The position numbers and the translations under genes are program-made. A DNA stretch of 64,000 bases from Aquicoccus porphyridii. GTDB taxonomy: Bacteria > Pseudomonadota > Alphaproteobacteria > Rhodobacterales > Rhodobacteraceae. The notes beneath the pieces are model-generated. The model saw only the letters and a list, made by a program, of their open reading frames with translations, ran no database searches and was not told where the DNA came from. Each line of letters starts with the position of its first letter. Positions within the stretch are counted from its first letter, which is position 1. The DNA lies in assembly GCF_008369105.1 (NCBI RefSeq), contig NZ_VINQ01000002.1, positions 105,298 through 169,297 of the forward strand. Direction: 5' to 3'. Below are positions 54,232 to 64,000 of this stretch, piece after piece.

Positions 54232-55854
54232 TTGCCCAATCCCAGCCAGCCGGATCGCTTTCTCGTCCATGGTCATGTCGTGACCCCGGACACCAACGAG
54301 ATCGCCCGCGATGGAACGGTCGCGCGAATCGAGCCGAAATCGATGGAAACGCTGGTGCATCTTTGCGCCCATGCCGGCGAGTTGGTGTCACGCGACGACC
54401 TGCAGCAAGCGATCTGGGGCGATGTAGTTGTCGGCGACGACAGCCTGACCAATGCGATCATCAAGATCCGCAAGGCTTTTGGAGACGATGCGCGAAACCC
54501 GCAAGTGATCGAAACCATTCCGAAACGCGGATACCGCCTGATCGCGGCGGTAGAGCATGAAAGGCAAAGACCCCTGTCAGCTACACCACGGAACCGGCAA
54601 CCGGCATTGCTCGTTCTGTTTCTGGCCGTAATTGCGATGGCCGGTAGCCTATTCCTTTTCAGTAGCCAGCAACCTTCGACAGCAGCGCAGAATCCGGTGA
54701 CACAATCCGCGCTGGCCGACACCCGAACGCGCATCCTGGTCGCGCCATTCCGGAACCTCAGCGGTGATCCAGCGCAGGACTACCTGGTGCGCGGCGTGGA
54801 AGAGACCCTGCTGACCGGCTTGGCCCAATTCCCACGAATTGCGGCAATGCAGGGGCAGGCTTCACCACCCGCAGATTACCGGCTTGAAGGCAGCGTATAT
54901 CGCAACGGTAGACGCATTCGGGTCGAGGCGCGGTTGCTCGAAGTGGCGACGGGTATCATCCTGTCGACAGAACGACATGAGGGTGACTTTTCCGATCTGA
55001 TAGCGATCGAAGCCGAGATCGAGGTTACCATTCTGTCCGCCCTTGCGAACGATATCGAAATCGCCAACCGGACCAGCGCGTCACGCGGATACACCCATTC
55101 GGTCGACGCCTATGACTTGTTCCTTCGCGCACGCTCTGCTCTTTTGCCGCGCGACCAATCCGGCAACGCCCGCGCCCGCGAGTTGTACACACAGGCAATC
55201 GAACGGGACCCCCGTTTCGCGCGCGCCTATGCCGGTTTGGCCCTGACCCATGCCGCCGATTATCGTAATGGTTGGGTGGAGAATAGGCAGGACTCCCTGA
55301 ATATGGCCCTGAAAACGGCACAGATCGCGCTTGGGATTGAACCCAACATGCCAGAGCAACTATGGGTCATCGGCTATGTCCAAACCCAGTTGCGCGAACA
55401 CGCCAAGGCCGAAGCAGCGTTGAAAGACGCCCTGGAGCTTGATCCGTTCTATGCCGATGCCTACGCTTTGATGGCGGGGGTCAAGACATATGCAGGGCAA
55501 CCAGAAGCCTCCATCCCGTTGCTGCGCGAAGCGATGCGCCTCAACCCCCAAGCCGGGTATCTTTATTTCCTGCTGCTCGGGCGGGCTTACTATTTCTTGG
55601 GGGATTGTGAGCAGGCGAATATCAACCTGCATGAGGCGGCTGTCCGTAACCTCGCGAATGTGGAAACACGCCTCTACATAGCCGCCTGCATGGTCGAAGC
55701 CGACGACTTGGATGGCGCCCGGTGGGAGGTGGAGGAAATCCTGAACTTGGCGCCGTCATTTAGTGTTGAATCCTTTTTCAACTCGTACCCTATGGCCGAT
55801 CCCGATCAGACCGAGACGCTGACACACGATCTGAAAATGGCTGGAGCCACCTGA
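54232..55854 (+). CDS. Winged-helix (CadC-type) regulator with membrane segment and TPR repeats
   Basis: A 540-residue regulator. Residues about 10-105 are an OmpR/CadC-type winged helix (IEPKSMETLVHLCAHAGELVSRDDLQQAIWG, TNAIIKIRKAFGDDARNPQVIETIPKRGYRLIA). A membrane helix follows (LLVLFLAVIAMAGSLFLF), then an adenylate-cyclase-associated domain (ILVAPFRNLSGDPAQDYLVRGVEETLLTGL), and TPR repeats from about 330. The only start that fits is TTG at 54232, behind GAAAGG. It probably senses an envelope or periplasmic signal and controls the divergent methyltransferase-nitrilase operon. Confidence 0.85.
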   Translation: MPNPSQPDRFLVHGHVVTPDTNEIARDGTVARIEPKSMETLVHLCAHAGELVSRDDLQQAIWGDVVVGDDSLTNAIIKIRKAFGDDARNPQVIETIPKRGYRLIAAVEHERQRPLSATPRNRQPALLVLFLAVIAMAGSLFLFSSQQPSTAAQNPVTQSALADTRTRILVAPFRNLSGDPAQDYLVRGVEETLLTGLAQFPRIAAMQGQASPPADYRLEGSVYRNGRRIRVEARLLEVATGIILSTERHEGDFSDLIAIEAEIEVTILSALANDIEIANRTSASRGYTHSVDAYDLFLRARSALLPRDQSGNARARELYTQAIERDPRFARAYAGLALTHAADYRNGWVENRQDSLNMALKTAQIALGIEPNMPEQLWVIGYVQTQLREHAKAEAALKDALELDPFYADAYALMAGVKTYAGQPEASIPLLREAMRLNPQAGYLYFLLLGRAYYFLGDCEQANINLHEAAVRNLANVETRLYIAACMVEADDLDGARWEVEEILNLAPSFSVESFFNSYPMADPDQTETLTHDLKMAGAT

Positions 55855-56719: not shown

Positions 56720-58378
56720 TCATCTGTTCGCCCGCGCCAACAACCCCACCGCAACCAACCCTACCCCAATGATCAAAACCGCCGCCGGAGCTGCATTGCC
56801 AAGGTTTTCAAGGCTCGCTTCGTTGTGGACCCGCGTGGCGAGGGTGTCAAAGTTGAACGGTCGCAACAAAAGCGTTGCTGGCAGTTCCTTCACGCAATCC
56901 ACGAAGACCAGCAAGAGCGCCGAACCCACCGATCCACGGATGAGCGGGTAATAGATCTCATGCAACGTCTGCCCCTGTGACCGCCCAAGCGATCGCGCCG
57001 CCATGGGCAAACTCGGCGATACCCGTCCCATTGCCGCATCGGCCGCCCCTTGCGCGATCGCGAAGAACCGCACCGAATAGGCAAGGACCAGGGCAAAAGC
57101 CGATCCGGTCATGATAAGCCCGATATCATATCCGGTCAGGTTTTCCACCATGTCGGCCAGCCAGTTGTCTATCGTGGCCAGGGGTATGAGAATTCCCACC
57201 GCAAGTACCGCGCCGGGCGCGGCGTACCCGATGGTTGTCACCGGCAATAGCTTCCGAGGCAGGCTCCGCCCCGACAAACGCACGCCATAAACAAGAAACA
57301 CACCGGCCAGAACCGTCACAACGGCGGCCGTTCCACCGACGGTCAACGTATTGATCAATGCGCTGAACAAGGCCGGGTTGGCCCATTGATCTGCGTTGGC
57401 CAGCGCATGTTTCAGGATGACGGCAGCAGGAAGAATAAACCCGATAGCAAATGGAAACAGGCACAACAGGAACGCCACGGCGGCGGCCCATCCTGTCACC
57501 CGCTTGCGCTCGACCGGGCGGTGCCGGGTCGAAAGATCGAAAAACTTGACCTTTCGGCGCGAAAGTCTTTCCAGCATCACCAGCAAAATGACGATCGCAA
57601 GAACCACCGAGGCAATCTGCGCCGCCCCGCCGGCATTGTTGCTCTCGAGCCAGACGTTGAAAATACCGGCGGTCAGGGTTTGGACGGCAAAGAAATCGAC
57701 CGTGCCGAAATCATTCACCGTCTCCATCATCACGATTGCCACACCCGCCGCAATCGCCGGGCGCGCCAAGGGCAGGCCAACGCGCCAGAACCGCGCCAAC
57801 GCCCCGGCCCCGAGGCTCATCGCCACCTCTTCGGAACTGCCCGACTGCTCCCGAAAGGCGGCCCGCGAAAGCAAATAAACATATGGGTAAAGCGAGGCGC
57901 TCAACACGATAATCGCCGCCCCCATCGACCGGATCTCGGGAAACCAGTAATCCCGCGCCGTCTGCCAACCGAACATCGCCCGCAAGCCGGTCTGAACCGG
58001 CCCCGCATATTCCAGAAGGTCGACAAGCGCATAGGCCCCGACATAGGCAGGGATCGCCAAGGGCAACAATAACAACCATTCAAGCCAGCGCGACATTGGA
58101 AAGCTGTAACGAGAAATGATCCACGCCGCACCGGTTCCCACAACCGCGGTGACAGCGCCGACCGCGCTCATCAATACAAGCGTGTTCCTGAGGTAGCGCG
58201 GCAATGTCGTGGCCAACAGATGTGGCCAGATATTATCAACTGGAAACAACGCGATCCACAACACCGCGGCAATCGGCGCCAACACGATGATTGCAATGAC
58301 CATCGCCCCGACAGACCACGGATCCACCAGATCGCGCCAAGCACGCCTATCATTCTTGAGAAGAGTCTCGAGGCTCAT
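56720..58378 (-). CDS. Iron(III)-type ABC transporter permease (FbpB/SfuB-like, fused)
   Basis: A 552-residue permease with about twelve membrane segments made from two similar halves, as in FbpB/SfuB. EAA-like loops are EVAMSLGAGALARFWRVGLPLARPAI near residue 185 and AAMGRVSPSLPMAARSLGRSQGQTLHEIYYPLIRGSV near 455. The family imports ferric iron delivered by a periplasmic protein. Neither binding protein nor ATPase is adjacent, so partners are coded elsewhere. Other substrates (thiamine, putrescine) use related permeases. Confidence 0.88.
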   Translation of the reverse strand: MSLETLLKNDRRAWRDLVDPWSVGAMVIAIIVLAPIAAVLWIALFPVDNIWPHLLATTLPRYLRNTLVLMSAVGAVTAVVGTGAAWIISRYSFPMSRWLEWLLLLPLAIPAYVGAYALVDLLEYAGPVQTGLRAMFGWQTARDYWFPEIRSMGAAIIVLSASLYPYVYLLSRAAFREQSGSSEEVAMSLGAGALARFWRVGLPLARPAIAAGVAIVMMETVNDFGTVDFFAVQTLTAGIFNVWLESNNAGGAAQIASVVLAIVILLVMLERLSRRKVKFFDLSTRHRPVERKRVTGWAAAVAFLLCLFPFAIGFILPAAVILKHALANADQWANPALFSALINTLTVGGTAAVVTVLAGVFLVYGVRLSGRSLPRKLLPVTTIGYAAPGAVLAVGILIPLATIDNWLADMVENLTGYDIGLIMTGSAFALVLAYSVRFFAIAQGAADAAMGRVSPSLPMAARSLGRSQGQTLHEIYYPLIRGSVGSALLLVFVDCVKELPATLLLRPFNFDTLATRVHNEASLENLGNAAPAAVLIIGVGLVAVGLLARANR

Positions 58379-58525
58379 CCTTGCCCTGTTGCCTGATTTC
58401 GGTTCTATGGTCCAGAAAAGACCTTATACAGCGACAAAACAGCGTGGGGAATAGAGGCTGCAACCTTGCCAACGGGGCATGTACAGCCCGGATAGTGCCC
58501 CAACCATGAACACACGAGGCGACAA

Positions 58526-59401
58526 ATGCAGATCATGTTTCACGCCGGAGTTCACTGCACCGACGATGACCGCGTGTTGAAATGCCTGTTGCGCAACCGA
58601 AGTGAATTTTCGGAAATCGGGTCGATCGTGCCACCACCCGGGCGCTATCGAAAATTGCTCCACCAAACCCTTGTTGCCTTGTCCCAGTCCGAGCCCGCGC
58701 CAAACGCGCGTGAAATTCTGCTGGAAACGATTCTCGACGACGACCAGGCCGACAGGCTGCTTCTGTCCAACGAAAACCTTTTCTGCATTGGCAAGCTCGC
58801 TGTTTCAAACGGTGTCCTCTATCCCAAGGCGGGGATGCGGATCAGGCAACTGAAATCCCTCTTTCGCGGGGATCAGATCGAAGTTTTTATCGCCATCCGA
58901 AATCCGGCGACTTTCTTCCCCGCGCTCTTCAACGCCACACCTGTGGACGATTACAACGCGTTGATGCGCGACAACGACCCGCACGATCTGGCTTGGTCGG
59001 AACTGATCTGGCGAATTCGCAATGAACACCCGGACGTGCCCCTGACCGTCTGGTGCAACGAGGACAGCCCCTTGATCTGGGCACAGATCATTCGCGAGAT
59101 GGCCGGGTTGAACCCGGGCGCCAAGATCAAGGGCGGCTTCGACCTTCTGTCCGAGATCATGACACGCGACGGGATGAAACGCTTTCGCGCCTATCTGGCC
59201 GAGCATCCCGCAATGACCGAGATCCAGAAGCGTCGCGTGATGGTCGCATTTCTCGACAAGTTCGCGCGCGAGGACATGATCGAAGAAGAGCTTGATCTGC
59301 CCGGCTGGACCGATGACCTCGTGGATACTCTGAGTGAAGCCTATGATGAGGATGTGTATGAAATCGCACGCATCCCCGGGGTGAATTTCATCGCCCCCTG
59401 A
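58526..59401 (+). CDS. Sulfotransferase-like hypothetical protein
   Basis: A 291-residue protein I do not firmly recognise. It begins MQIMFHAGVHCTDDDRVLKCLLRN, which resembles the P-loop start of sulfotransferase-like proteins (FHAGxHKTGT) but lacks the Lys-Thr pair; LLLSNENLFC resembles the SSE-type segment of the same fold, and EVFIAIRNPATFFPALF the PAPS-binding R-x-P. A degenerate or divergent sulfotransferase fold is therefore possible, with missing cofactor residues. It stands alone, divergent from the permease and convergent with gapR. Confidence 0.6.
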   Translation: MQIMFHAGVHCTDDDRVLKCLLRNRSEFSEIGSIVPPPGRYRKLLHQTLVALSQSEPAPNAREILLETILDDDQADRLLLSNENLFCIGKLAVSNGVLYPKAGMRIRQLKSLFRGDQIEVFIAIRNPATFFPALFNATPVDDYNALMRDNDPHDLAWSELIWRIRNEHPDVPLTVWCNEDSPLIWAQIIREMAGLNPGAKIKGGFDLLSEIMTRDGMKRFRAYLAEHPAMTEIQKRRVMVAFLDKFAREDMIEEELDLPGWTDDLVDTLSEAYDEDVYEIARIPGVNFIAP

Positions 59402-59424
59402 ACCCGGTCGGCACGCACTGCGCC

Positions 59425-59700
59425 TCACCGCATCCCGAGTGCTTCCTTATACATATCCAAGACCGCCTCTTCCTCCGCGATGTCATCGGCATCCCGCTTG
59501 CGCAGCGCGATCACCTTGCGCATGACCTTGGTGTCATAGCCACGTGCCTTGGCTTCCGCCATGACCTCTTTCTGTTGATCGGCTATGTCCTTTTTCTCGG
59601 CTTCCAGCCTCTCAAAGCGCTCGATGAACTGCCTCAATTCATTGGCCGTCACACGATATGTCGAATCTTGGTCACTTTGCACATTGTCACTATCGGTCAT
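59425..59700 (-). CDS. gapR: GapR-family (DUF2312) nucleoid protein
   Basis: A 91-residue DUF2312 protein. The core ANELRQFIERFERLEAEKKDIADQQKEVMAEAKARGYDTKVMRKVIALRKRDADDIAEEE is the GapR signature. In Caulobacter GapR is a clamp-like protein that binds overtwisted AT-rich DNA and assists topoisomerases during replication. Length and helical pattern are normal. Some genomes carry more than one copy; whether this is the main one is unknown. Confidence 0.9.
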   Translation of the reverse strand: MTDSDNVQSDQDSTYRVTANELRQFIERFERLEAEKKDIADQQKEVMAEAKARGYDTKVMRKVIALRKRDADDIAEEEAVLDMYKEALGMR

Positions 59701-59840
59701 GCTCGGGCCTCCTTCGGTTGAGAGCGCACTGACTACCCCTCTCCCCTCACCCCCGCAAGAGGATATCGCACCGCAGCCTTGCGCTTTGCATCATGATCCG
59801 CTAGCCGCGTGCCGTCTCACTGCAAACGAAAGCGAAAGTG

Positions 59841-60056
59841 ATGCTATTCCTGATCTGGGCTGGTGCTGGCGTTACACTCATCGGGCTGCTTGGCCTCGCA
59901 TGGTGCATCGTCAGGGCCGCAGCCGCCAAACGCGAGAACCTCTCGGACGAGGCAATGCGCGCGCGCCTGGCCCGTCTCGTACCAATCAACCTGGCATCCC
60001 TTTTGCTCTCGGCCATTGGATTGATGATTGTTATCATTGGAATTTTCCTGGCTTAA
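59841..60056 (+). CDS. Small two-helix membrane protein
   Basis: A 71-residue protein with two membrane segments (LFLIWAGAGVTLIGLLGLAWCIVRAAAA and LASLLLSAIGLMIVIIGIFLA) joined by a charged loop (KRENLSDEAMRARLARLVPIN). A GTG at 59838 is an alternative start. It overlaps the convergent FadJ-like gene by four bases. The function is not known. Confidence 0.65.
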   Translation: MLFLIWAGAGVTLIGLLGLAWCIVRAAAAKRENLSDEAMRARLARLVPINLASLLLSAIGLMIVIIGIFLA

Positions 60057-62158
60057 TCGCCGAACCTCGTGCCGTCCTTTATCCGGTCATCCAGAATTGG
60101 TGAAATCTGCCACAATCGCGGGTCAGACGCGCTGAACCTCTCCAACGCCTTTCTGACCCTGATAAGGCCCGCGTTTTCGGCCCATTTCATCGGTCCGCCA
60201 GACGAACGTGGCATGCCCAACCCATGGATCGCGGCCAGATCCACCTCCGCGGCACGCCCGATTACGCCACCCTCCATCAATTCGAGCCCCACACTCACCA
60301 AGGCCAGCAATATGCGTTGACGGATTTCCTCCGCAACGGGCCCCTGTCTGTCAGCCTCAACGTCGCGCCAGCGTGCAACAAGTGCATCCGCCTCCGGGTC
60401 TGCTCTCGGGTTTTGACCATTGTCGTCATAGCGGTAATATCCCCGACCGTTCGCAATACCGTCGCGACCGACGGCAAGAAGCGCACTGTTCAGCGAATTC
60501 TCGCGCTCATGCCCGTTGATCGCAGCCAATCTGGCCGATTGAGTTCCAAGCCCTTCACGATCCATCATCGCAAATGGTCCCGCCCGCCATCCAAGGGCCC
60601 TGTCGACCTCCAATGGCGAGGCACCTTGCAACACGCACCACTCTGCCGCCGCAAAGAACCGGGACACCAATGTCTGCAAAAGACACCCGTTCCGGGGGGC
60701 CACATGCAACACGACCTTGCGCATCGCACGGGCCAAGGCTTCACTCCGGATCACGGCCTCTGCCGAAACCGCGTCCGGCACGACAAGCTCAACCAGCCTG
60801 GCCAACTGCGGGGGTGGCTGAAACGCGCCACCGAGCACACGCCCGCCAAACAGGTGCGCCATGGCCCCGCCCCGCAACGCGACATTCGACCCAAGCAGAA
60901 CCGGAATCTCAGGACCGGTTGCCGACGTAAGAAGATCGGCGACATCTCCCATCGCCGATAGAGGAAAACCTCCGGCTTCGATGACAATCTCGCCGCTGCC
61001 GATCACCTCCTCCAGCCGTCCGCCGGACAGCCGGGACAGCCGCGCTTGCGCGTGCTCGGCACTCGTATGGCCAGCCGCGACCTCTTGTGTGTTGACCTTC
61101 TCGATCTCCTTCACAAGCCGCCCGGCACCGCCTTCTGCGCGTTCGGCCAAATGAACGCGGGCACCGGCATCAAGGCACGCAATCGCCACCCCCCGCGCCA
61201 TCCGGCTGTCCCCGAACACCACCACGTCCTTGGGCGCAGGATGCCGGGCTGTCAGAAAAAATGCCTCCGCCTGCGCCACATGGACAAGTGCGGCGGCCCT
61301 GGAACTTTCTCGCAACACATGAAACGACGACGTTTCAAAAGCTTGCCCTGCCTCCATTGTCAGCAGTTGCGCAGCCTCAACGCAGTCGACAATCGCCTTG
61401 GCCTCGGCAGACAAAACCCCCTTGCGTGCGCCCGCGACCGCCCGTTGATATTGGATCGGGTCTGATAACCCGGCCGCCTCGGCTTCACTCCGCCGGTTAT
61501 TCGCCCGGGACTGAACCGCAAGGTCACGCGCCAGCCCGATCGCCGCATCCATCAGGTTGTCACCGACAAGCCGCTCGAAAAGAGGCGCGACATCCACATG
61601 TTCGGCGGGCACAAGGCGTCCCGACAGCATAAGCTCGATCGCAGGCCCAGCCCCCAGAATCCGCGAAAGCCTCTGGGTTGCGCCTGCAAAAGGGCACAAA
61701 CCCCACTCGATTTCCTTGAACCCGATCCTCGTGCCAACCTGCGCAACGCGCGCATGTGTGGACAATGCCAACGACAGCGCGCCGCCACACACGGCCCCCT
61801 GCATCACCGCAACAACCGGCAGGTCAGAACAGGCAACACGAGAGCACAATTTGCCGAGGCTTTCGACCGTCACATCGCTCAGAATCTCGGACAGCGGCGG
61901 ACCATCGGGAAATCCATCGCCCTCCCCCGCAATCACAACGGCCAGAACCCCCTCCGCTTGCGCCCGGCAAAGCGCCGCGCCGATTGAGTCAATCACCTGC
62001 CCGCTCAAATGACCGGGGTCCTGATTGACGCTCAAGATAGCAATTCCGTCTTTTGTTTTATATGACAGGCCTTGCGCCACTGACGGCTCTTCCCAATACA
62101 CGTCTCGTGACAGAGTTTTGGGCAGTCTTTGCCTCCGCGCAAGTTCCGAGTTTCGCAT
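60053..62158 (-). CDS. Enoyl-CoA hydratase/3-hydroxyacyl-CoA dehydrogenase fusion with degenerate active sites
   Basis: A 701-residue FadJ-like fusion. The N-terminal crotonase domain is about 30-215, the 3-hydroxyacyl-CoA dehydrogenase NAD domain starts near 305, and the C-terminal domains end with GMPRSSGGPMKWAENAGL. Several normal catalytic features are changed. The first crotonase Glu (GGGxEVAL in relatives) reads GGALSLAL. The NAD loop GxGxMGxGI is FGDSRMARGV. The dehydrogenase His (GLHFFxP) is GGAFQPP, although the following LVELV Glu is kept. It may be a pseudoenzyme or act on an altered substrate. The preceding 72-aa gene ends nine bases upstream. Confidence 0.82.
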   Translation of the reverse strand: MRNSELARRQRLPKTLSRDVYWEEPSVAQGLSYKTKDGIAILSVNQDPGHLSGQVIDSIGAALCRAQAEGVLAVVIAGEGDGFPDGPPLSEILSDVTVESLGKLCSRVACSDLPVVAVMQGAVCGGALSLALSTHARVAQVGTRIGFKEIEWGLCPFAGATQRLSRILGAGPAIELMLSGRLVPAEHVDVAPLFERLVGDNLMDAAIGLARDLAVQSRANNRRSEAEAAGLSDPIQYQRAVAGARKGVLSAEAKAIVDCVEAAQLLTMEAGQAFETSSFHVLRESSRAAALVHVAQAEAFFLTARHPAPKDVVVFGDSRMARGVAIACLDAGARVHLAERAEGGAGRLVKEIEKVNTQEVAAGHTSAEHAQARLSRLSGGRLEEVIGSGEIVIEAGGFPLSAMGDVADLLTSATGPEIPVLLGSNVALRGGAMAHLFGGRVLGGAFQPPPQLARLVELVVPDAVSAEAVIRSEALARAMRKVVLHVAPRNGCLLQTLVSRFFAAAEWCVLQGASPLEVDRALGWRAGPFAMMDREGLGTQSARLAAINGHERENSLNSALLAVGRDGIANGRGYYRYDDNGQNPRADPEADALVARWRDVEADRQGPVAEEIRQRILLALVSVGLELMEGGVIGRAAEVDLAAIHGLGMPRSSGGPMKWAENAGLIRVRKALERFSASDPRLWQISPILDDRIKDGTRFGD

Positions 62159-62167
62159 TACCCGTTT

Positions 62168-62386
62168 TCACACCGGCATGTTGTCAAACTGCGCCTCGAT
62201 CGCAGCGTCCATCAGTGCTTTTTCAAGGTGTATCACACGCTCCGGCGGTTCCAGCCCTGCCTTCAGCATACACTCAACCAGATTATGCAAATCCTTTTGC
62301 ACCAGACGGTACTTCTCATCCGGAAGGTTCTCGATGCGCCTTTCCAGCGCTTCGAGTGCTTGGTTTAACGTGTCTTGCTGCATCAT
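62168..62386 (-). CDS. Small helical protein (72 aa), unknown
   Basis: A 72-residue acidic protein, MMQQDTLNQALEALERRIEN, then PDEKYRLVQKDLHNLVECML and ERVIHLEKALMDAAIEAQFDNMPV. It looks fully alpha-helical and probably forms a coiled-coil dimer. AAAGGA precedes the first ATG. It lies between the DksA/TraR gene and the FadJ-like gene on the same strand and may be co-transcribed. I know no family. Confidence 0.6.
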   Translation of the reverse strand: MMQQDTLNQALEALERRIENLPDEKYRLVQKDLHNLVECMLKAGLEPPERVIHLEKALMDAAIEAQFDNMPV

Positions 62387-62431
62387 GGTTCACGTCCTTT
62401 CGTTCGACCATGTTCCGCACCTCGATCAGCA

Positions 62432-62755
62432 TCACAAAGACGCGGCGCAGGTTTTGCAAAACGGCGTGTATGGCAACACGTCCAGCCGGGCCTCAGGTAT
62501 CTGCTCGCCACATTTGGTGCAGATCCCGTATTCCCCGTCCCGAATCCGTTGGAGAGCAGCGCGGATACGCCTGATTTCTTCCTGACCCGCCAGCCCCAAC
62601 CCCTCCAGAACTTCATCATCCTCGCGTTCGGTCGCCAGTTCTTCCCAGTCTTTCGACTGGTGCGCATCAAGTTCCTCTTCGATCTCATGCAATCGCTGGT
62701 CCAGTTCCGACAATCGTGTCAGCAACAGAGCCCGGTATTTCGCGTAGGATTTCAT
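62432..62755 (-). CDS. DksA/TraR-type zinc-finger protein (four-Cys)
   Basis: A 107-residue protein of the TraR/DksA family. After a helical hairpin (YRALLLTRLSELDQRLHEIEEELD) comes the zinc site YGICTKCGEQIPEARLDVLPYTPFCKTCAAS with all four cysteines. GGAGG lies nine bases before the ATG at 62755; an upstream start at 62818 is unlikely. Its helical part is shorter than that of true DksA, so regulation of RNA polymerase may differ. It diverges from the persulfide dioxygenase gene. Confidence 0.85.
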   Translation of the reverse strand: MKSYAKYRALLLTRLSELDQRLHEIEEELDAHQSKDWEELATEREDDEVLEGLGLAGQEEIRRIRAALQRIRDGEYGICTKCGEQIPEARLDVLPYTPFCKTCAASL

Positions 62756-62847
62756 CTGGTCACGCCTCCCTTGTCCAAGGGGAAGAGTCGCACATTTCAC
62801 TGCAAGAATCATTGACACAAATCAAAGGCACATCATCTGATCATCGG

Positions 62848-62877
62848 TTGAAACACATGCGAAAAAATACATATTAA
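62848..62877 (+). promoter_or_regulatory. Predicted promoter of the persulfide dioxygenase operon
   Basis: TTGAAA (62848-62853), 18 bases, then TATTAA (62872-62877). It is AT-rich and 43 bases before the ATG. I found no convincing BigR/SqrR operator around it. Confidence 0.55.
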
Positions 62878-62919
62878 AACCGAGGTCACGAGAAACAAGA
62901 AATCACCAGAGGAGTCCCC

Positions 62920-63783
62920 ATGTCACCCGAAGTGAAAGCCTTTTTCGATGAAGCCACGAATACGATTTCCTACATTGTGCGCGACCCGAACGGATCGTCC
63001 TGCGCCATTATCGATTCAGTGCTGGACTTCGATTACGCCTCTGGTCGCACTGACACCGCGTCGGCCGACCGGATCATCAAGTGGGTCAAACAAGAGGGTC
63101 TGAGCGTTGAATGGTTGCTCGAAACGCATGTTCACGCCGATCACCTTTCTGCCGCCCCCTATATCCAGCAGGCGTTGGGCGGCAAGATTGGAATAGGCGA
63201 CCGGATCAAGGTCGTTCAGGAAACGTTTGGCAAGGTTTTCAACGAAGGCACCGAGTTCGAGCGGGACGGCTCTCAATTCGATCAGCTCTTTGCAGAAGGC
63301 GACAGTTTCATGATCGGTCAACTGCGCGGGGACGTGTTGCATACACCCGGTCACACGCCGGCTTGCCTGACCTATGTGATTGGTGATGCGGCCTTTGTTG
63401 GCGATACGCTCTTCATGCCCGATTTCGGCACGGCGCGGTGCGATTTTCCCGGCGGCTCCTCGCGAATGCTCTATGACTCGGTGCAGAAAATCCTGGCGTT
63501 GCCAGACGCGACCCGCATTTTCGTAGGGCACGACTACAAGGCGCCGGGTCGTGAAGAATATGCATGGGAAACAACGGTTGGAGAGCAGAAAACCCGGAAC
63601 ATTCATGTCGGCGATGGGAAATCCAGGGATGAGTTCGTGAAAATGCGCGACGAACGCGATGCATCCTTGCCCATGCCGAAACTTATCATCCCGTCACTTC
63701 AGGTGAACATGCGCGCGGGCCACATGCCCAAACCCGATGACAAGGGCGACGTGTTCCTGAAAGTTCCGGTGAACAAGCTCTGA
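62920..63783 (+). CDS. Persulfide dioxygenase-like MBL-fold protein (Blh/ETHE1 type)
   Basis: A 287-residue metallo-beta-lactamase-fold enzyme. Metal motifs are LLETHVHADHLSAAPYIQQ near 68, HTPGHTPACLTYVIGDAAFVGDTLF near 145-170, and FVGHDYKAPGR near 207. This order and the C-terminal KLIIPSLQVNMRAGHMP fit the ETHE1/Blh group that oxidises glutathione persulfide to sulfite. A DUF442 sulfurtransferase follows, the usual partner in sulfide-detoxification operons. Sulfite made here could feed the SoeABC-like enzyme. Confidence 0.9.
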   Translation: MSPEVKAFFDEATNTISYIVRDPNGSSCAIIDSVLDFDYASGRTDTASADRIIKWVKQEGLSVEWLLETHVHADHLSAAPYIQQALGGKIGIGDRIKVVQETFGKVFNEGTEFERDGSQFDQLFAEGDSFMIGQLRGDVLHTPGHTPACLTYVIGDAAFVGDTLFMPDFGTARCDFPGGSSRMLYDSVQKILALPDATRIFVGHDYKAPGREEYAWETTVGEQKTRNIHVGDGKSRDEFVKMRDERDASLPMPKLIIPSLQVNMRAGHMPKPDDKGDVFLKVPVNKL

Positions 63784-63847
63784 AATGCTGCCAAAGGCCG
63801 ATGCCAGGTGCTGGACAGAGGCTCAGCAGCTGCATAAAAGACAAACC

Positions 63848-64000
63848 ATGGATATTCGCACCCTGACCCCCCGATACTCGGTGAGCCCGCAAATCTCAGC
63901 ATCCGATGCCGCCGCAATCGCCGCGGCGGGTTTTACGACTGTGATCTGCAATCGTCCGGATGAAGAGGTTCCCAAGGATCAACAGGCCGAGGCCATTGGC
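63848..64000 (+). CDS. DUF442/TIGR01244 sulfurtransferase, truncated by window end
   Basis: An open frame of 51 codons that runs off the edge. It reads MDIRTLTPRYSVSPQISASD, then AAAIAAAGFTTVICNRPDEE and VPKDQQAEAIG, the N-terminus of DUF442 phosphatase-like sulfurtransferases, often fused or next to persulfide dioxygenase (Blh). The ATG at 63848 lies 64 bases after the dioxygenase stop. Its active-site cysteine is outside the window. Confidence 0.8.
   Translation, partial: MDIRTLTPRYSVSPQISASDAAAIAAAGFTTVICNRPDEEVPKDQQAEAIG

Follow-up and report, generated by a model that had tools for sequence, protein, structure and literature searches.

A probable maintained pseudoenzyme derived from a hydratase-dehydrogenase fusion at a syntenic locus of Rhodobacteraceae

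The 64,000-nucleotide stretch of contig NZ_VINQ01000002.1 of Aquicoccus porphyridii analysed here (the window) contains on its reverse strand, at 60053-62158, a gene related to the fusions of a crotonase-fold enoyl-coenzyme A (CoA) hydratase with a 3-hydroxyacyl-CoA dehydrogenase (HAD) that act in beta-oxidation. Essential residues of both active sites have been lost, the losses are common to the orthologues and the protein is under purifying selection, and pseudoenzyme is the label that best suits this combination. We consider it likely that the gene is a maintained pseudoenzyme, originating from a redundant beta-oxidation enzyme at a syntenic Rhodobacteraceae locus and perhaps working as a folded scaffold for acyl-CoA binding or interaction. 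Searches of open-licence papers found no prior report on this gene or on a crotonase pseudoenzyme.

The open reading frame (ORF) at 60053-62158 extends over 701 codons without internal stops. A preliminary description of the window had taken this whole frame as the gene, and the open frame stands, but the start of the coding sequence has to be moved. GTG 62080 is the start codon position in both orthologues of the same genus, G001 and G002 (the latter on contig JAABTV010000050.1, a Rhodobacteraceae metagenome-assembled genome), and in G002 a stop codon is found just upstream of the equivalent GTG. For this reason the coding sequence is probably 60053-62080, giving a protein of 675 residues that are numbered here from that GTG, with ATG 62158 as the start of the ORF further upstream. 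Pfam searches with the 701-residue ORF recovered ECH_1 (61 bits), 3HCDH_N (44) and 3HCDH (39) in a single chain, each over its cut-off, so the predicted product is an MFE1/FadJ-type hydratase-dehydrogenase fusion, as had been proposed. Its layout is predicted to follow the five-part A-B-C-D-E order of rat MFE1 (RnMFE1) and of the active MFE1-type paralogue of the window genome (G000:C14), which have the same length. Domain A, with the crotonase (hydratase/isomerase) fold, comprises residues 1-196 (61493-62080; Pfam ECH_1 and hhalign) and is followed by the linker region or domain B, residues 197-283 (61232-61492; by alignment), the boundaries of both being approximate. Domain C is the Rossmann domain for nicotinamide adenine dinucleotide (NAD), residues 284-462 (60695-61231; 3HCDH_N), and domains D and E are the first and second HAD C-terminal domains, residues 463-565 (60386-60694; 3HCDH) and 566-675 (60056-60385). 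The linker-helix motif VDCVEAAQLLTMEAGQAFE (residues 231-249, 61334-61390) survives even in the most decayed homologues, and domain E contains the motif GLGMPRSSGGPMKWAE at 60176-60223.

The catalytic columns were aligned in three ways, with MAFFT over 38 rows, with MAFFT over 73 rows and with a profile-profile comparison by hhalign, in which six members of the window clade matched seven catalytically complete relatives with probability 100 and E 9.4e-84 over 669 columns. All three alignments confirm the losses that had been noticed at the outset: the first catalytic hydratase Glu is replaced by Ser103 (61772-61774), the dinucleotide loop reads GDSRMA (residues 290-295, 61196-61213) where complete relatives have GGGTMG (GxGxxG), and the catalytic His of the HAD half is Ala419 (60824-60826). 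Two more losses were found, the HAD Asn of the GNR motif, which is Gln469 (60674-60676), and the Ala of the AGAD motif, which is Pro61 (61898-61900). We take the backbone NH of this Ala to be the first oxyanion-hole donor, stabilising the thioester oxygen, and by alignment alone Pro61 likely sits at that first position. The second hydratase Glu, Glu123 (61712-61714), and Glu431 (60788-60790), the anchoring partner of the HAD His, have been kept. Compared with a functional MFE1, FadB or FadJ, the three-domain chain is therefore present, with the Glu pair, the GxGxxG loop and the HAD His+Glu pair all incomplete. From these residues we predict with high confidence that the protein has no 3-hydroxyacyl-CoA dehydrogenase activity, and with good confidence that it has no enoyl-CoA hydratase activity.

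The window clade has six members, the window genome (G000), G001 and G002 from the same genus, and G096, G011 and G078. Within the genus, Pro61, Ser103, Glu123, Ser292, Ala295, Glu431 and Gln469 are identical in 3/3 genomes, and residue 419 is Ala/Val/Ala. Listed in the order given above, the residues of the six members are S, S, S, A, A, D at the first Glu position, E, E, E, E, D, A at the second and A, V, A, A, A, A at that of the HAD His. The sites are thus variable in G096, G011 and G078, yet these three likewise lack the HAD His and the counterpart of Glu103. No single replacement residue is conserved in the clade, which argues against one new shared reaction and weakens the suggestion of a new chemistry made in the preliminary description. 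Misalignment of the catalytic columns was rejected as an explanation, independent phmmer, MAFFT and hhalign alignments being in agreement, and so was an assembly error or frameshift artefact, given the same residue states in three genomes.

Selection was evaluated by the ratio of nonsynonymous to synonymous substitution rates (dN/dS). In the comparison of G000 with G001 and with G002, 675 codons aligned with zero gaps and dN/dS was 0.24 and 0.21, at a dS of ~1 that makes these ratios approximate. The same method, applied in the same genomes where available, gave 0.03 for the neighbouring DksA/TraR-like gene, 0.04 for the MBL-fold gene, 0.07-0.08 for the gene of a 291-residue protein, 0.05-0.07 for the permease and 0.06 for the active MFE1-type paralogue. 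The protein is under purifying selection, 3-8 times less strict than that on its larger neighbour genes. All five domains are affected (0.14-0.33 each, 0.21-0.27 in domain A), and a protein kept at full length with constraint over its whole extent would be acting as a pseudoenzyme. That selection has kept the protein had previously been argued from the open frame, by itself weak evidence; the ungapped codons and the dN/dS values now sustain it. In a neutral simulation of the sequence, 0/300 copies remained stop-free at 0.25 and also at 0.5 substitutions per site. Other lineages with a dead dehydrogenase gave 0.41-0.49 (G012, G326 and G327) and 0.48 (the pair G018-G322), and the complete copies of G323, G324 and G328 gave 0.08-0.15 among themselves. 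Constraint in the window's genus is therefore roughly double that in the other dead lineages for which a ratio was obtained.

The distribution of this constraint along the chain was examined in 32 degenerate rows (excluding the short rows L060, L054 and L107, plus L127) and 14 complete rows of the locus family. Mean pairwise identity was 0.37 in degenerate against 0.56 in complete rows for domain A, 0.37 against 0.55 for B, 0.27 against 0.54 for C, 0.35 against 0.67 for D and 0.35 against 0.56 for E. The drop was largest in the NAD domain C and in domain D, and smaller in A, the linker helix B and E. Furthermore, genome G034 has a protein of 447-448 residues without most of the HAD region in which the motifs of B and E are still present. 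Both observations indicate that what has been kept is the framework and not the chemistry. In RnMFE1 the hydratase site lies under the linker helix, which is itself tightly packed against domain E (PMC10988713). The window clade also has 24 clade-specific invariant positions (one in A, three in B, seven in C, seven in D and six in E), one of which, S398 in domain C, is an alignment slip according to hhalign. Most are located in the former dehydrogenase half, for example Trp481, Cys482, Gln514 and Trp571.

The prevalence of the gene is given solely from a survey of 150 family genomes anchored on the DksA/TraR-like protein encoded next to it (E 1e-20). This protein was matched in 69/150 genomes, 25 of them with an adjacent homologue of the pseudoenzyme, 17 syntenic but without the homologue and 27 without the neighbourhood. 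Both HAD residues, His and Asn, are kept in only 3/24 of the survey homologues (G026, G062 and G166), the 25th (G140) being cut by the end of its contig, and both hydratase Glu residues in 10/25. A profile search enriching for complete members found further complete copies at the same locus besides those of G026 and G062. In genome G036 a degenerate homologue of 608 codons (L054, 7702-9525) lies apart from the DksA/TraR-like gene (L101), either because it has moved or because the neighbourhood was dispersed.

In a rooted tree of 76 rows the locus members form a clade of 57 (support 100) apart from other MFE1-type copies; the exception is L167 (G259), which branches just outside. This final tree includes within-genus relatives and an outgroup, the earlier trees having had long degenerate branches and, in one case, a misleading midpoint root. 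Both the 72- and the 76-row trees were enriched for complete members, with 17 loci drawn from the top of the profile search; L127 (from G140) was omitted from the trees, and L137 and L054 also from the last one. Counting a dehydrogenase as dead when His or Asn is missing and a hydratase as dead when either Glu is missing, dehydrogenase loss requires at least four changes on this tree, three of them forced by well-supported branches, and hydratase status at least 11; these counts are minima, because mutual attraction among the long branches of the degenerate rows is possible. The genus of G012 offers the clearest case of independent loss: the gene was found in 6/7 genomes searched, three of them with complete copies (G323, G324, G328) and three dehydrogenase-dead (G012, G326, G327). 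Fifteen homologues of the wider clade combine a dead dehydrogenase with both hydratase Glu residues.

Redundancy would fit this pattern as the reason for the release. A second full-length MFE1-type copy (at least 690 bits) was present in 25/35 of the dehydrogenase-dead genomes versus 4/15 of the dehydrogenase-intact ones (Fisher p 0.005, a value that ignores kinship and belongs to a comparison picked after the table was seen). The 15 intact genomes leave out G291 (off-locus) and G255 and G166 (where part of the hydratase site is gone), and G157, where the second copy is half-length, was counted by its tree position only. All six members of the window clade carry a closely related active MFE1-type paralogue (1117-1187 bits).

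Among known enzymes, those of solved structure that come nearest are hydratase/dehydrogenase fusions, namely 6ium and the peroxisomal bifunctional enzyme. The sequence of 6ium is the nearest (325 bits over 666 profile positions) and keeps the Glu pair, GAGTMG, the His and GNR; the window protein is without the first Glu, the loop, the His and the Asn. Identity with the MFE1-type enzymes (RnMFE1 and G000:C14) is ~27%. The catalytic residues of RnMFE1 are Glu103 and Glu123 in the hydratase and His431 in the dehydrogenase (PMC10988713); the window protein has Ser at Glu103, a broken NAD loop, Ala at the His431 equivalent and Gln at the HAD Asn. Compared with the FadB/FadJ alpha subunit (NCBIfam PRK11154, TIGR02440), the best NCBIfam match was FadJ PRK11154 with 171 bits, far under the curated cut-off of 869, but the complete paralogue fails too (467-477 of 869-870), so the cut-off does not discriminate. 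The window protein also differs from the FadB/FadJ complex in its lost catalytic residues. No thiolase gene was found among the neighbours examined.

The course of events that we favour begins with a complete hydratase/3-hydroxyacyl-CoA dehydrogenase as the ancestor at this locus, since some family members there keep all catalytic residues. Catalytic constraint would then have been released in many lineages, plausibly through the presence of a second MFE1-type enzyme. With the caveat of long branches, the tree shows that loss of the dehydrogenase site usually preceded that of the hydratase site, and that this happened repeatedly; in the window's genus both sites have lost essential residues. 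What remained, the framework of domains B and E together with the crotonase pocket, may still fold and bind acyl-CoA or a protein partner with no turnover, a function that we propose with low confidence and by analogy. Binding by a dead hydratase has a precedent in the RnMFE1 E123A variant (PDB 3ZWB), which has enoyl-CoA bound and unhydrated (PMC10988713). The likeness is that of a hydratase-dead MFE1 keeping its fold and its ligand, features of the variant that would be shared by the window protein; the variant is engineered and has lost the second Glu, and the window protein lacks the first one and the dehydrogenase residues.

Several observations weigh against a maintained scaffold. The slot is empty in 12/17 of the syntenic genomes without the homologue, which carry the DksA/TraR-like gene and the GapR gene on one contig with nothing resembling the pseudoenzyme gene between them, so the gene is dispensable in some relatives. 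The AlphaFold model of the window protein, made with one orthologue (L040) as additional sequence, reached a predicted local distance difference test (pLDDT) of 37.4 and a predicted template modelling score (pTM) of 0.26 and was not used, which leaves the retained fold and pocket to be deduced from sequence. A conserved ligand site could not be demonstrated in the window clade, Glu123 and Glu431 are still there so that some residual or altered chemistry may persist, and the dS of ~1 makes the dN/dS values approximate.

The presence of Glu123 leads to the first of the alternatives, in which the crotonase half would still be enzymatic, as a one-glutamate isomerase or in another crotonase-fold reaction, and the dehydrogenase half would be a structural remnant. 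Delta3-Delta2-enoyl-CoA isomerase is presumably such a one-Glu crotonase, whose only catalytic Glu occupies the second position, and the window protein has the Glu required there, conserved in 3/3 genus members and in G096. Besides, crotonase-fold enzymes perform many reactions, 6ium is labelled a hydratase/isomerase, and the 15 homologues mentioned above could make a working hydratase half a common state. We nevertheless regard this alternative as unlikely: the isomerase is also assumed to need an intact oxyanion hole made of two backbone NH, and by alignment Pro61 likely occupies the place of one of them; the clade members nearest to the group of G000, G001, G002 and G096, namely G011 and G078, have Asp and Ala respectively at the Glu123 position; and domain A is no more constrained than the rest of the chain. 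The protein could otherwise be a dedicated regulatory or assembly partner of an active MFE1-type (G000:C14) or FadJ-type enzyme, for example in a mixed oligomer, and the active paralogue found throughout the window clade would supply such a partner. This we find improbable too, since a second full-length MFE1-type copy is missing from 10/35 of the dehydrogenase-dead genomes and no beta-oxidation gene adjoins the pseudoenzyme gene. A regulatory role in fatty-acid oxidation in the broader sense, as the preliminary description had suggested, is conceivable and meets the same two objections. A slowly decaying pseudogene without function would account for the fast rate relative to larger neighbours, the even laxer related lineages, the G034 remnant and the empty slots, but is very unlikely with not one stop or indel across the 675 codons in all three genomes despite such a dS, a dN/dS about half that of the other dehydrogenase-dead pairs, and clade-specific invariants mostly in the HAD half.

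Going beyond the maintained scaffold, the same locus copy may have been made non-catalytic repeatedly in Rhodobacteraceae and then have taken on, in the window's clade, a new function in binding or regulation that is under selection. The tighter constraint compared with other dead lineages and the new clade-specific invariants point in this direction, and we offer it as a tentative proposal, less likely than not. If true, the locus would offer naturally replicated examples of an enzyme turning into a pseudoenzyme. Pseudoenzymes have mostly been studied as single cases, and here one syntenic gene provides a graded and replicated series within one bacterial family, with complete, dehydrogenase-dead, doubly dead, shortened and missing stages, intact and dead copies being found even inside one genus. 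Such a series makes the order of the losses, the role of redundancy and the onset of new constraint testable. It also means that automatic labels such as FadJ or 3-hydroxyacyl-CoA dehydrogenase will often be wrong about function at this locus.

The gene order MBL, DksA/TraR-like, pseudoenzyme gene, GapR, 291-residue protein and ABC permease is recurrent across Rhodobacteraceae. Upstream of the pseudoenzyme gene, the DksA/TraR-like C4 zinc-finger protein is encoded at 62432-62755 on the reverse strand (Pfam DksA-like_N and zf-dskA_traR, and synteny). An operon with this gene was rejected as a functional explanation: it persists without the pseudoenzyme gene in the 12 genomes with the empty slot, so the linkage may be merely positional, and its product was not matched at E 1e-20 in G011, G028 and G034, the loci of which carry the pseudoenzyme gene. 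None of the neighbours (DksA/TraR-like, GapR, MBL-fold and ABC permease) is a beta-oxidation gene, and they indicate no pathway. An ORF of 72 codons at 62168-62386 (reverse strand), between the DksA/TraR-like gene and the pseudoenzyme gene, evolves as fast as the latter (dN/dS 0.29-0.30) and had no Pfam match above the cut-off and no NCBIfam match. The syntenic MBL-fold protein (62920-63783, forward strand) aligns solely to positions 141-423 of the Blh sulfur transferase/dioxygenase model and corresponds to a stand-alone dioxygenase part. Downstream are the GapR-like nucleoid protein (59425-59700, reverse strand; Pfam PF10073, 114.9 bits) and, by synteny, the 291-residue protein of no assigned family (58526-59401, forward strand), which has zero Pfam or NCBIfam matches yet is found beside GapR across the family with 34-87% identity. 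An Rfam scan of 58300-64000 gave no match, and no relatives of the window protein were found in the viral contigs scanned. In genome G110 the slot between the DksA/TraR-like gene and GapR is filled by an unrelated ORF of 600 codons (L117, 3233-5032, reverse strand). At 54232-55854 (forward strand), outside the conserved neighbourhood, there is a winged-helix (Trans_reg_C) protein with TPR repeats. Finally, a convergent ORF of 71 codons resembling a membrane protein (59841-60056, forward strand; no Pfam or NCBIfam match) overlaps the end of the pseudoenzyme gene by four bases, and similar ORFs occur in the empty slots of L097, L106 and L114.

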